DNA of 64,000 nucleotides, from contig JAJVIQ010000017.1 in assembly GCA_022071965.1 (NCBI GenBank), positions 1 to 64,000 on the forward strand. Reading direction: 5' to 3'. Positions 17,309 to 23,846 of this stretch are shown here, in pieces (position 1 is the stretch's first letter; the number at the start of each line of letters is the position of its first letter). The notes under the pieces are model-generated. The model was not told where the DNA came from. It saw only the letters and a list, made by a program, of their open reading frames with translations, and did not search any database. The position numbers and the translations under genes were made by a program. Origin of the DNA: Gammaproteobacteria bacterium. GTDB taxonomy: Bacteria > Pseudomonadota > Gammaproteobacteria > JAJPIJ01.

Positions 17309-18778
17309 TCAGGCAAATGGGGCGGGCAGGCGCGTGTGCCAGTCGGTCGCCTGCTGGTATTGGTGGGCGACGTTCAGCATGCGCGCCTCGTCGAAATGCC
17401 GGCCGATGATCTGCAGGCCCACCGGCAGCCCATCGGCGAATCCGCATGGAATCGACATGCCCGGGAGCCCGGCCAGGTTGACGGCGATGGTATAGATGTC
17501 CGAAAGGTACATGGTGACCGGATCGTCGGTCTTTTCCCCGATCCTGAACGCCGTGGTCGGCGAGGTCGGCCCGAGAATGACGTCGCACTGATTGAACGCA
17601 GCATCGAAGTCATTGCGGATCAGCCGGCGTACCTTCAGGGCCTGCAAGTAGTAGGCGTCATAGTAGCCGGCGGAAAGGGCGTAGGTGCCGATCATGATTC
17701 GCCGCTTTACCTCCGCGCCGAAGCCCTCCCCGCGCGAGCGACAGAACAGATCCATCAGGTCCCGCGGCTCCTTGCACCGGTAGCCGTAGCGCACGCCGTC
17801 GAAGCGACTGAGGTTGGAGGAGCATTCCGCCGGCGCGACCACGTAGTAGGCAGGGATCGACAGCTCGCTGTTGGGAAGGCTCACCTCCACGAGCGAGGCG
17901 CCAAGACTGACCAGTTCCGCGGCTGCCGCGTGCACGGCGGCGCCGACCCTCGGATCCAGACCGTCGCTGCCGAAGTATTCCTTCGGCATGCCGACTCTCA
18001 GGCCGCGAAGGGGGGCGTCAAGCAGGCGGGCATAGTCCTCCTTCTCCCGCTCGACGGATGTGGAGTCGCGGGGATCGTTGCCGGCCATTACGTTCAGCAC
18101 CAGCGCGGCATCCTCTGCGGTGACCGCCATCGGTCCGCCCTGATCAAGACTGGAGGCGAAGGCAATCATCCCGAAACGCGACACCGCGCCGTAGGTCGGC
18201 TTGATCCCCGTGATGCCGCAGAGGGCCGCGGGCTGGCGAATCGAACCACCGGTATCGGTCCCCGTCGCAAAAGGTGAGATGCGGGCCGCGACGGCCGCGG
18301 CACTGCCGCCGGAGGACCCGCCCGGCACGCGCTGCAGGTCCCAGGGGTTGTGCACCGGCCCGAAGTAGCTCGTCTCGTTGGACGAGCCCATCGCGAATTC
18401 GTCCATGTTGGTCTTGCCCAGCATGACCATGCCGGCGTCGCGGAAATGCCGCGTCACCGTCGCGTCATAGGGCGCTATGAAGTTCTCGAGCATGCGCGAG
18501 CCGCACGAGGTGCGCACACCCTTCGTGCAGAAGATGTCCTTGTGCGCGTACGGCACCCCCGTGAGCGCCGTCACCGCCTCGCCGCCGCCGATGCGTGCAT
18601 CGGCGGCCTTCGCCGCCGCCAGCGCCAGCTCCGGCGTGACCGTAATGAAGCTGTTCAATCGCCCGTCGAGGGAGGCGATGCGATCGAGAAACGACCGGGT
18701 GACCTCGACGCTGGAGAATTCGCGTCTGCGCAGACCGGCAGCGATGCGCGCCACCGTCATAGTGTGAAACTTGCTCAT
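17309..18778 (-). CDS. gatA: Aspartyl/glutamyl-tRNA amidotransferase subunit A
   Basis: GatA, 489 residues, an amidase-signature enzyme. The catalytic Ser-cisSer-Lys triad is visible: Lys at about residue 80 (VPYAHKD), the glycine-rich segment [20 protein letters not shown] and the serine in [13 protein letters not shown]. It hydrolyses glutamine and channels ammonia to GatB, completing Gln-tRNA or Asn-tRNA formation in organisms lacking the direct synthetase. Middle gene of gatCAB. Confidence 0.98.
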
Positions 18779-18833
18779 GAGCTGCCTGCCGCCGGTTCCA
18801 AGCAGATGTCGTGATCCGAAATGACGGGAACGC

Positions 18834-19121
18834 CTACTCGATCACCTTGGGTACGAGGTAAAGTCCCGCCTCGACCGCCGGCGCGATGGATTGCATCGCC
18901 TCGCGTTCGTTGATCTCCGTCACGATGTCCTCGCGCATGCGGGTGGGGGTGTCGAAGGGGTGCGCCATGGCCTCCACACCGGTGGTTTCGGCGCCGTTCA
19001 TCTGCTCCACGAAGGTCAGGATGCTGGAAAGCTGCGCGGCAAAGCCGGGGATCTGCTCCCCGGTGATCTGCAGTCGCGCGAGATGCGCGATCTTCTCCAC
19101 GTCCTGCTTGCTGAGTGACAT
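18834..19121 (-). CDS. gatC: Aspartyl/glutamyl-tRNA amidotransferase subunit C
   Basis: GatC, 95 residues, starting [23 protein letters not shown]. The C-terminal part includes [18 protein letters not shown]. GatC stabilises the GatA-GatB pair. The start was placed at this ATG; 33 extra in-frame codons upstream are not conserved. First gene of the operon, divergent from mreB. Confidence 0.96.
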
Positions 19122-19294
19122 GGTGGTCGACTCCCCGGTGTGGTTCCTGAAAGTGGGTGACAGTGCGCCGGCGCGTCCGCCCTCTCGGGGTGCCGTCGGT
19201 GGCCGCCGGCGGGGCCACACGGAGCAGGTCCCGCCTCTCCGCGAACTGCCGCCATGGACCGCTGAATCGCGCGGGAAAATAGCACAAATATGGC

Positions 19295-19323
19295 TTGCCG
19301 GATACGGTGACGGCTGCTAAAGT
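19295..19323 (+). promoter_or_regulatory. Candidate mreB promoter
   Basis: TTGCCG and TAAAGT separated by exactly 17 bases, lying in the 367-base divergent gap between gatC and mreB. Both boxes match the sigma-70 consensus only partly. If used, the transcript would have a leader of roughly 160 bases before the mreB ATG. No other pair of boxes in the gap looked better. Confidence 0.4.
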
Positions 19324-19352
19324 TCGCCTCGAAAACGCCACCAATCTCGCGT

Positions 19353-19379
19353 AAATTTAGTGGGTTAGCGCCCAAATTT
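19353..19379 (+). promoter_or_regulatory. Hairpin in the mreB leader
   Basis: Outer arms AAATT(T)/AAATTT and inner TGGG/CCCA arms enclose a six-base loop, with a three-base bulge on the left side. It lies between the candidate promoter and the mreB start, about 110 bases before the ATG. It is AT-rich in an otherwise GC-rich region. Its role is unknown; no terminator-like T-run follows. Confidence 0.35.
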
Positions 19380-19461
19380 GCACTGCCTGCCATCTCCGCA
19401 GACGACGGCGTGTCCGATGGCGGTCAGGTCCGAACCACACTCTGGAACGAGAGCCGGGTAG

Positions 19462-20535
<1,074 letters not shown>

Positions 20536-20599
20536 AATCCGGGCCGGCCGCATAATGCCTCCCTTGGGGACAGCATAAGAAGCATACGGGGAAACAGTC

Positions 20600-21466
20600 A
20601 TTAAACCGCTCTTCCTCAAACGCTCGTCGGCATTATCCCGCTATATCGCGCTGGCGTTGATGGCGGCGGCGCTGCTGATCGCCGATCAGCGCTACCGCGC
20701 GACCGAGGCGCTGCGCTCGGCCATCTCGGTTCTCGCTTACCCGATCCAGTACGTCGTGAGCCTGCCGGTGAATGGCGGTCGCATGCTCATGGAGAGCGTG
20801 GCCACGCGCAAGGAGATGATGGCCGACAACGAGCGGCTGCGCGCGCAGAATCTCCTGCTCAAGACGCGGCTGCAGAAATTCGCCGCGCTGGAAACCGAGA
20901 ACATGCGATTGCGCGAGCTGCTCGAGTCCTCGATCGAGGTCGGGGAGCGAGCGCTGGTGGCGGACCTGCTGGGCGTGGAGACGGAGCCGTCGTCGAACCA
21001 GGTGGTCCTCAACAAGGGCACGCGACACGGCGTCTACCTGGGCCAGCCGGTGGTCGACTCCGACGGCGTGACCGGCCAGATTACGCACGTGGGTCCCTTC
21101 ACCTCCACGGCCATGCTGATCACCAATCCCAAGCACGCACTGCCGGTGCAGGTGAACCGCAATGGCATCCGGGCGATCGCGACCGGCGGTGACGGGGACG
21201 CCCTTTCTCTCAGTTTCGTGCCTACCAATGCGGACATCCGCGTGGGCGATCTCCTCATCTCCTCGGGGCTGGGCGGCCGGTTTCCCGCCGGCTATCCGGT
21301 GGGCGAGGTGAAACAGGTCCTGCGCACGCCGGGCGTTCCGTTCGCGAAGGTCACCGTCATGCCCAGCGCCCGGCTGGCCCGGACCCAACAGGTCCTGCTG
21401 CTGTGGCCGGAGGAAAAACCCAGGTCGGTGGCCGGTCTGAACCGGCCTGCTATCAACGCCGAATAG
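20600..21466 (+). CDS. mreC: Rod shape-determining protein MreC (probable ATT start)
   Basis: MreC, 288 residues if translation begins at the ATT. From there the protein reads I/M-KPLFLKRSSALSRYIAL, which aligns with the MKPIF start of E. coli MreC and gives a complete transmembrane helix. The first in-frame ATG (20657) would cut into that helix. A GGGG ribosome-binding site lies about eight bases before the ATT. A coiled coil (residues about 70-110, MADNERLRAQNLLLKTRL) precedes the periplasmic beta domains (NKGTRHGVYLGQPVVD and VGDLLISSGLGGRFPAGYPV). MreC links MreB to PBP2. Confidence 0.93.
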   Translation: MKPLFLKRSSALSRYIALALMAAALLIADQRYRATEALRSAISVLAYPIQYVVSLPVNGGRMLMESVATRKEMMADNERLRAQNLLLKTRLQKFAALETENMRLRELLESSIEVGERALVADLLGVETEPSSNQVVLNKGTRHGVYLGQPVVDSDGVTGQITHVGPFTSTAMLITNPKHALPVQVNRNGIRAIATGGDGDALSLSFVPTNADIRVGDLLISSGLGGRFPAGYPVGEVKQVLRTPGVPFAKVTVMPSARLARTQQVLLLWPEEKPRSVAGLNRPAINAE

Positions 21467-21479
21467 GCGTCGGTCCCGC

Positions 21480-21965
21480 ATGACCAGCTCATCCCGCGGG
21501 TGGGTGATCGCCGCGACCTTCCTGATTGCGCTCATGCTGACGGCACTGCCCCTGCCGCCATGGGCCGCACCGTGGCGGCCGGCATGGGTGGCCATGGTGC
21601 TCATATACTGGAATCTCGCGCTGCCCGAGCACGTCGGCCTGGTCGTCGCGTTCGCGATCGGGCTGCTGCTCGACGTCATGCTGAGCGCGCCGATGGGACA
21701 GAACGCACTGGCGCTGACCACGGTGAGCTTCGTAACCATCGCCAATCACCAGCGGTTTCGCCTCTACCCCGTCGGGCAGCAGGCGATCATCGTCGGCCTG
21801 TTGATCCTGCTGCATCAGCTTCTCACCTTCCTGGTGCGCCAGCTCCTGACCCTGCAGAAGCCCGATCCGGTGAACCACTGGTTTCCCGTCATCACCAGCA
21901 CGCTGTTGTGGCCGTGGCTGTTCATACTGCTTCGCGACCTGCGCCGGCGGGCGCAGTCCAGCTAG
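21480..21965 (+). CDS. mreD: Rod shape-determining protein MreD
   Basis: MreD, 161 residues, an integral inner-membrane protein with about five hydrophobic segments (for example VIAATFLIALMLTALPL and LVVAFAIGLLLDVML, the latter with the conserved GLLLDV motif). It completes the MreBCD complex and follows mreC by 13 bases. Confidence 0.94.
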   Translation: MTSSSRGWVIAATFLIALMLTALPLPPWAAPWRPAWVAMVLIYWNLALPEHVGLVVAFAIGLLLDVMLSAPMGQNALALTTVSFVTIANHQRFRLYPVGQQAIIVGLLILLHQLLTFLVRQLLTLQKPDPVNHWFPVITSTLLWPWLFILLRDLRRRAQSS

Positions 21966-21974
21966 AAAACGCCC

Positions 21975-23846
21975 ATGCCGCAGTTCCTGAGTTTCCGCGA
22001 CCGTCAATCGGAGGTCCGCATCGCTCGCAGCCGCGTGTTCGTGGCGACGGCGCTGATGATCCTGATGCTGTTCGCGCTGCTGGCACGGCTGGCATATCTG
22101 CAGATCGTGCGGCACGATCATTACACCACGCTGTCCCGGGACAACCGCGTGAAGATCGTTCCGGTGGCGCCGACGCGGGGTCTCATCTTCAGTCGCGACG
22201 GGATCCTGCTCGCCGACAATCGCCCGTCGTTCCGTCTCCAGGTCGTGCCGGAGCGCATCGAGGACATGCGGGAGGCGCTGGCGAAGGTGTCCACCGTCGT
22301 CGACCTCACACCTTCTGACATCGAGCGCTTCCAGCGGCTGCGCAAGCGCAAGCGCAGCTTCGACACCGTGCCGCTGCGATTCAACCTGACCGAGGAGGAG
22401 GTGGCGCGATTTTCCGTGGATCGGCATCGATTCCCCGGTTTCGAGGTCACCGCATCGCTCACGCGGCATTATCCCGTCGGGGCGCCGCTGGTTCACGCCG
22501 TCGGTTACGTCGGGCGCATCGATGAGGACGATCTGGATGGACTGGACCCGGACAATTACAGCGCGACCACGCATATCGGCAAGATCGGCGTGGAGCAGTA
22601 CTACGAGGCGACGCTGCACGGTCGCGTCGGCCTGGATCAGGTCGAAGTCAACTCGCAGGGACGCACGCTGCGCGTGCTGGACAGCAAGCCGCCGGGCCCC
22701 GGCGCGACGATACGCCTGACGATTGACACGCGTCTGCAGGCGGCCGCGACGCGCGCGCTGGGGGATCGCCGCGGCGCGGTCGTGGCGATCGATCCGAACA
22801 CTGGCGAGGTCCTCGCGCTGGTCAGCACGCCGACCTTCGACCCGAATCCCTTCGTCAACGGGATCAGCGCGGCGCTCTTCGGCGACCTGCGCGATTCGCC
22901 CGACCGGCCGTTGTTCAACCGCGCGCTGCAGGCCGCGTATCCCCCGGGTTCGACCCTGAAGCCTCTCATGGCGCTGGCGGGTCTGCACTACGGGCTGCGC
23001 TCGCCGGCCGACGGCACCTGGTGTCCCGGGTGGTTCGCCCTGGACAACGATCCCCATCGTTACCGCTGCTGGAACAAGTGGGGTCACGGGCGCATGGTCA
23101 TGCGAGAGGCCATCGCGCAATCCTGCGACGTATATTTCTATCAGCTCGCCCTGGATCTCGGCATCGATCGCATGCACGACTTCCTCGACATGTTCGGGCT
23201 GGGCCGGCGCACCCGGATCGACCTGCCGGGCGAGGCCGCGGGCGTGAATCCGTCGCGCGCGTGGAAGCGCAAAGCGCGGAATCTGCCGTGGTACCCGGGT
23301 GAGACGCTGATCGCCGGTATCGGCCAGGGATTCCACACCACGACCCCGCTGCAGCTTGCGCAGGCCGCGGCCGTGATCGCGAGCCGTGGCACCCTGATGC
23401 AGCCCCATCTGGTCTCCCGCATAGAGACCGCGGACGGCAAGGCGACACCGACGGTGGTGAGGCCACGGCGGGTGCTCGCCGATCTCGACCCGAAGGCATG
23501 GGACAGCGTCATCGACGCCATGCATGCAGTGGTCCAGGGCCCCACGGGCACCGCACGGCGTTCCGCCGAGGGTGCTCCGTACGAGTATGCGGGAAAGACG
23601 GGCACCTCCCAGCTGTTCGGCATACGCCAGAACGAGGAGATCGAGACCGAGGACATCGAGGAACGGCTGCGCGATCACGCACTGTTCATCGCCTTCGCGC
23701 CGCTCGATCGTCCGGAGATTGCGCTCGCCGTGATCGTGGAGAACGGCGCGAGCGGCAGCGGATCGGCGGCGCCGGTGGCGCGCAAGGTGCTCGACGAGTA
23801 CTTCCTGCGCATGGGGCATTCCAGGAGGACGGCGCAGAATGGATGA
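21975..23846 (+). CDS. mrdA: Penicillin-binding protein 2
   Basis: PBP2, 623 residues, the elongation-specific transpeptidase. One N-terminal membrane anchor (VATALMILMLFALLARLAYL), a dimerisation/pedestal region beginning at VAPTRGLIFSRDG, and the transpeptidase domain with SxxK at Ser326 (PPGSTLKP), SCD at about 383 and KTG at about 541 (YAGKTGTSQLFG). It cross-links peptidoglycan strands made by RodA. It overlaps mrdB by eight bases, suggesting coupled synthesis of the two partners. Confidence 0.97.
   Translation: MPQFLSFRDRQSEVRIARSRVFVATALMILMLFALLARLAYLQIVRHDHYTTLSRDNRVKIVPVAPTRGLIFSRDGILLADNRPSFRLQVVPERIEDMREALAKVSTVVDLTPSDIERFQRLRKRKRSFDTVPLRFNLTEEEVARFSVDRHRFPGFEVTASLTRHYPVGAPLVHAVGYVGRIDEDDLDGLDPDNYSATTHIGKIGVEQYYEATLHGRVGLDQVEVNSQGRTLRVLDSKPPGPGATIRLTIDTRLQAAATRALGDRRGAVVAIDPNTGEVLALVSTPTFDPNPFVNGISAALFGDLRDSPDRPLFNRALQAAYPPGSTLKPLMALAGLHYGLRSPADGTWCPGWFALDNDPHRYRCWNKWGHGRMVMREAIAQSCDVYFYQLALDLGIDRMHDFLDMFGLGRRTRIDLPGEAAGVNPSRAWKRKARNLPWYPGETLIAGIGQGFHTTTPLQLAQAAAVIASRGTLMQPHLVSRIETADGKATPTVVRPRRVLADLDPKAWDSVIDAMHAVVQGPTGTARRSAEGAPYEYAGKTGTSQLFGIRQNEEIETEDIEERLRDHALFIAFAPLDRPEIALAVIVENGASGSGSAAPVARKVLDEYFLRMGHSRRTAQNG

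Follow-up and report, generated by a model that had tools for sequence, protein, structure and literature searches.

Predicted initiation of mreC at a conserved AUU, AUC or AUA codon in many Gammaproteobacteria

Analyzing the window, i.e. the whole stretch of 64,000 nucleotides of gammaproteobacterial DNA studied here, we found that its mreC gene almost certainly begins at ATT (20600), which is not a normal start codon. Below, ATH (AUH in the mRNA) denotes ATC, ATT and ATA, and canonical denotes ATG, GTG and TTG. Most of the gammaproteobacterial mreC genes read here likewise appear to start at a conserved AUH codon, preceded in most cases at 6-8 nt by a strong Shine-Dalgarno sequence (SD). The best explanation as a whole, to which we assign a probability of roughly 0.8, is translation of the window gene from ATT 20600, a conserved AUH site whose output is expected to be low and sensitive to IF3. 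Position, conservation, SD, coding N-terminus and absence of other starts are read from the sequence, and low efficiency and IF3 sensitivity of mreC would follow by analogy with published work on infC, pcnB, sigR and ccpN.

The start of mreC in the window

The features of the region are as follows.
19489..20535, + strand: mreB, ATG start, gene upstream of mreC
20576..20578, + strand: TAA, in-frame stop excluding any start further upstream
20588..20591, + strand: GGGG, core of the Shine-Dalgarno sequence with a spacing of 8 nt to ATT; pairing with the anti-SD predicted at -5.7 kcal/mol
20600..20602, + strand: ATT, putative start codon, which would be read by the initiator tRNA as fMet
20600..21466, + strand: mreC reading frame counted from ATT, 288 codons and the stop
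20657..20659, + strand: TTG, first canonical in-frame codon, inside the membrane helix and with a poor SD
21480..21965, + strand: mreD, ATG start, gene downstream of mreC
21975..23846, + strand: mrdA (PBP2), cluster gene after mreD

The gene order is mreB-mreC-mreD-mrdA, all on the + strand. The product of mreC matches TIGR00219 with 181.5 bits (cut-off 92.75) and PF04085 with 141.8 bits (cut-off 28), the gene is flanked by mreB and mreD as expected of the family, and hydropathy places a membrane helix at the N-terminus. Within 19300-21600 no promoter-like site was found, and the one terminator-like site, against 1.2 expected by chance, lies on the opposite strand inside mreB. The RNA structure around the mreC start is no more stable than that of shuffled sequences (z 0.80). 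Divergent from mreB, on the minus strand at 17309-19220, lie genes that by eye resemble gatA and gatC.

The mreC frame reads TAA(20576) GAA GCA TAC GGG GAA ACA GTC ATT(20600) AAA CCG CTC TTC, with no ATG, GTG or TTG between the in-frame TAA and the conserved KPLF motif; the internal canonical codons follow in GCG TTG(20657) ATG(20660). An earlier note on this DNA had placed the probable start at ATT, and the lack of any other start, the relatives, the SD and conservation strongly support it. The GGGG ribosome-binding site that it named is found where the feature list has it, and its statement that no canonical codon precedes the conserved region is exact, the first being TTG 20657. The class-wide spread of such starts and the use of ATC and ATA had escaped it. 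The SD of the window gene is weaker than the ATH mean reported below.

A genome of the same genus (G001, locus L002) carries the identical ATT and the identical 37 bases preceding it. Given that this genome and 193 of 248 anchored mreC genes of the class keep ATH at this position, chance is excluded for the window ATT. An assembly or sequencing error that destroyed an ATG in the window genome would require just a single base change, but with ATT in a second genome of the genus and ATH throughout the class we regard it as next to impossible. The earlier note held that an ATG further upstream in relatives would count against ATT; none is present in the same-genus genome and none was seen in 30 loci, among which some (L007, L008, L020, L022) have an upstream GTG or TTG. 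In two loci of another genus of the same family (L003 and L004) mreC has ATG exactly where the window has ATT, and E. coli K-12 has ATG at the aligned position. Met1 of the chain in PDB 7eft, whose N-terminus is that of the E. coli mreC gene, aligns to the window Ile at 20600, and the first 102 residues align free of gaps.

Two alternative starts were weighed. Initiation at the internal TTG 20657 (or ATG 20660), which would leave the upstream KPLF stretch untranslated, is very unlikely. These are the first canonical in-frame codons, the ones that a gene finder accepting only ATG, GTG and TTG could choose, and the depositors of a P. aeruginosa sequence picked a comparable internal GTG. However, the SD at TTG 20657 reaches only -1.5 kcal/mol versus -5.7 at ATT, a start there would truncate the membrane helix (the best hydropathy over 19 residues falls from 1.85 with ATT to 1.25), and the residues that it skips are kept throughout the class and change in the manner of coding sequence; furthermore, the TTG-ATG pair is replaced by CTG-GTG in the same-genus genome. 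Initiation one codon earlier, at GTC 20597 with ATT read as Ile2, is highly improbable as well: GTC does stand immediately before ATT, and excerpts of a study of Streptomyces sigR report a GTC start (PMC5472188), whereas the residue before Ile varies across the class (A 44, P 36, T 29 and V 16 of 192), unlike the position itself, which is ATN in 222 of 248 genes, and locus L148 has TAG directly before its ATC. A leader peptide was also considered, encoded by a small in-frame ORF from ATG 20555 to TAA 20578. This reading was dropped because the same-genus genome lacks its ATG, having ATA ATA AGC at that position.

Start codons of mreC across the class

A search of the Gammaproteobacteria found mreC in 332 of 369 genomes. 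The first set comprised 177 loci (an initial 30, 21 new ones from the class search and 126 fetched in addition), ranked, except for the initial 30, by likeness to the ATT query. Rows were anchored by alignment and then by the motif around a conserved Phe, by which 30 were dropped. The start column of the remaining 147 holds ATT 48, ATC 41, ATA 26, ATG 18, TTG 2, GTG 2 and other codons 10, and in 109 of the 125 non-canonical rows no ATG, GTG or TTG occurs back to the in-frame stop. The set was enlarged with 80 named loci, 29 loci found with the TIGR00219 model and E. coli to 287, of which 275 were distinct after removal of 12 duplicates and 248 anchored after removal of 27 others. These 248 carry ATC 82, ATT 74, ATA 37, ATG 29, GTG 3, TTG 3 and other codons 20, some of the last being rows anchored one codon late (e.g. 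L132, in which ATT AAG precedes). ATH thus stands in 193 of 248 genes where E. coli has ATG. Nothing canonical lies upstream in 175 of the 213 non-canonical rows, and 165 of these are ATH; put in terms of the 193 ATH rows, 165 are closed at the 5' end by the in-frame stop and free of canonical codons after it, in 27 a canonical codon occurs at some point upstream, and a single further row is open at a contig end.

Among the named loci, the best 80 of at least 587, ATH was found in 74, the number falling from 75, as counted at the first matched codon, on removal of L231 (Pokkaliibacter), whose match is offset and whose start column has GTG; 61 of the 74 have no upstream canonical codon and 13 have some. 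Examples among these best 80 are Pseudomonas fluorescens FW300-N2E3 and Candidatus Thiodiazotropha endoloripes (ATT), P. panipatensis and Methylobacter psychrophilus (ATA), and Stutzerimonas urumqiensis and Lamprocystis purpurea (ATC). The 29 TIGR00219-model hits yielded 18 anchored and distinct loci, 9 with ATH and 7 with ATG. To counter the bias of ranking, starts were read by eye in 22 additional genomes, this time ordered by similarity to MreC of E. coli: only 12 have ATH without an upstream canonical codon (L330 being open at a contig end), 3 have ATG at the same place, with L342 as a possible fourth, and 6 begin further upstream or are unclear.

The neighboring genes of the same loci behaved differently. 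When a canonical codon was sought from the stop to five codons past the aligned start, one was reachable in 164 of 166 mreB and 166 of 174 mreD genes versus 62 of 169 mreC genes, and ATH occupied the start column in 3/166 and 4/174 of mreB and mreD. For infC, the classic case of an AUH start, 27 of 30 genes of the same relatives have no canonical codon within 25 codons, and 25 of the 27 have an ATH candidate behind an SD; L276 and L284 are counted among the 27 and gave no usable start. In the window genome itself, infC (L281) likewise shows no ATG, GTG or TTG within 25 codons of the conserved N-terminus; it has ATC behind AGAGGAG.

Some lineages have a canonical mreC start. ATG is found in E. 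coli, Aeromonas caviae and others, across 12 maximal clades of the tree that include the genus of L003 and L004, and GTG, as annotated, in Acinetobacter baumannii and A. cumulans. In Legionella adelaidensis (L320, 271-300) the annotated mreC begins at a GTG and overlaps with the last part of mreB, another arrangement of this gene start.

The P. aeruginosa record CP123788.1 (L319) reads TAG (207-209) and then GAG CGG ATC ATC AAA CCG, with no canonical codon between TAG and the ATC at 219, and its deposited coding sequence starts at an internal GTG at 267, which is residue 17 counted from ATC 219. Excerpts of a study of MreC from PAO1, a strain other than that of the record, name residues Phe115, Arg175 and Arg190 (Nat Commun 2021, PMC8137920); counted from the ATC these are F131, R191 and R206. 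Given this constant shift of 16, the published numbering, as far as those excerpts go, fits the truncated protein. The same excerpts assign cytoplasmic residues and the membrane region together to the first 14 residues, a short stretch for a membrane span; the truncated P. aeruginosa MreC would be missing its cytoplasmic tail and some of its membrane helix. In a plasmid collection, hits H2-H5, H9 and H12 are chromosome-like records (or a 1.1 kb chromosomal mreB-mreC fragment) filed as plasmids.

Sequence signs of initiation at the start column

For each gene, the SD energy was that of the strongest pairing between the anti-SD and the 20 bases upstream. Its mean is -7.32 at ATH mreC starts without an upstream canonical codon (n=166) versus -4.50 in shuffled sequences, and, at ATG starts, -4.63 for mreC (n=29), -3.85 for mreB (n=141) and -6.02 for mreD (n=112). 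The mean for infC, -8.84, is biased downward, its start having been chosen as the candidate with the best SD. An SD core is present in 180 of the 193 ATH rows and lies 6-8 nt away in 129 of the 180. In the window gene, the absence of a canonical codon, the keeping of ATT in relatives and the distance of the SD are those of a putative member of the genes with a conserved AUH start.

The codons used differ from those of internal isoleucines: ATA appears 37 times in the start column, whereas internal Ile codons in these loci predict 13.9 (z 6.6), and ATC is deficient (z -6.0). Conservation itself sets in at the ATH codon, with K at +1 in 175 and F at +4 in 190 of the 193 rows. Upstream, entropy amounts to 3.3-4.0 bits, or 2.6-3.0 at the codons that overlap the SD, versus 0.58 at +1 and 0.13 at +4 downstream; conservation of the start column proper is fixed by the choice of rows. 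From ATH to the first internal canonical codon the median distance is 16 codons (n=165), and this stretch evolves as coding sequence, with differences of 0.126, 0.079 and 0.338 at codon positions 1, 2 and 3 (55 of 61 sister pairs) and 190 synonymous versus 120 non-synonymous codon changes. In four internal columns of conserved Ile, 40-75 of 222 rows have Val or Leu instead, whereas Val or Leu codons occupy the start column, ATN in 222, in only 12 of 248.

Avoidance of G at the third base proved less telling. The third base of the start column changed at least 64 times on a tree of 222 MreC proteins (FastTree), and 11 of these changes (0.17) exchanged G and another base. Across 30 fourfold control sites the fraction ranges from 0.18 to 0.79 (mean 0.48), so that the start column is the lowest of the 31, barely. 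We rejected this measure as proof because 0.17 is too close to the lowest control site (0.18); an internal Ile would likewise avoid G at its third base.

The difference in SD strength between ATH and ATG mreC genes (p 6e-6 without kinship correction) raised the possibility of a neutral ridge, on which AUH with a strong SD and AUG with a weak SD yield the same output, output alone is conserved, and the AUH start persists only because a switch to AUG would produce too much; no IF3-based regulation is involved. The weaker average SD of ATG mreC and the ATG with poor SD of E. coli speak for it. Against it, ATG occurs together with a strong SD in L003/L004, L105/L107 and L164, and mreB and mreD rarely have ATH in the start columns of the same loci. 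We consider the neutral ridge a possibility, though one with the odds against it. Allowing for kinship, the trade-off between weak codon and strong SD is not significant, and since only 5 independent ATG/ATH pairs stand on supported branches it is a tendency only. In L003 and L004, which belong to genus g2 of the window's own family, ATG is combined with an SD of about -10, among the strongest of the set, indicating that neither the weak codon nor the trade-off is obligatory.

Possible mechanism and relation to known systems

Returning to translation from a conserved AUH site, the initiator tRNA would mispair at the third base of AUC, AUU or AUA, and IF3 would be expected to destabilize AUH initiation complexes, so that mreC would be translated below the level of an AUG with the same SD and its translation would rise when IF3 activity falls. 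The strong SDs at ATH suggest that output is partly compensated, the SD making up some of the loss. MreC would be held low relative to MreB and tied to the state of the initiation machinery. That a low initiation rate sets the MreC level, as the earlier note had proposed, is plausible by analogy; the sister genus, with its ATG and strong SD, indicates that the weak codon is not indispensable. In a broader and decidedly tentative proposal, mreC could be a second gene beside infC that is kept on an IF3-discriminated AUH over much of the Gammaproteobacteria, coupling the capacity for cell-wall elongation in trans to IF3 activity and, through it, to the supply of ribosomes and the state of growth, and the AUG/GUG lineages (E. 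coli, Aeromonas, Acinetobacter, Legionella and others) would have lost or rebuilt this coupling.

The infC gene, encoding IF3, starts at AUU, AUC or AUA and is under IF3 autocontrol. Like infC, mreC has an AUH start behind a strong SD, but its product is a cell-wall elongation protein, and control by IF3 would therefore act in trans, not as self-feedback. The AUU start of E. coli pcnB, another non-canonical start on a chromosomal gene, was reportedly described by Binns and Masters in 2002 as translationally limiting; unlike it, the mreC case is spread over many families, and E. coli mreC has ATG. According to excerpts of a study of S. aureus, ccpN (AUA) and cvfC1 (AUU) combine a conserved non-canonical start with a strong SD, as mreC does, and three non-canonical starts gave ~10% of AUG output in poor medium, with ccpN reaching up to 30% in rich medium (PMC13009471); these are other genes, in Firmicutes, and those excerpts give experimental proof, whereas the mreC start is predicted from sequence. 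In Streptomyces the start of sigR is also non-canonical, but it is GTC and belongs to an actinobacterial sigma factor; it sets protein stoichiometry through IF3, and canonical replacements upset the system, as stated in excerpts of the report (PMC5472188).

No report of a non-canonical mreC start was found among the open-access papers listed by the searches, and an earlier report elsewhere is possible. Few genes are known to use AUU, AUC or AUA starts, and mreC would add to them a gene central to morphogenesis, across much of a bacterial class. Gene-finding programs that accept only ATG, GTG and TTG must truncate or misplace such a start, and given that AUH is common among the relatives, the mreC start may be mis-annotated in many species. 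By analogy with the systems above, MreC production may be throttled at translation, raising the question of whether IF3 sets the amount of MreC and hence the elongasome activity per cell.
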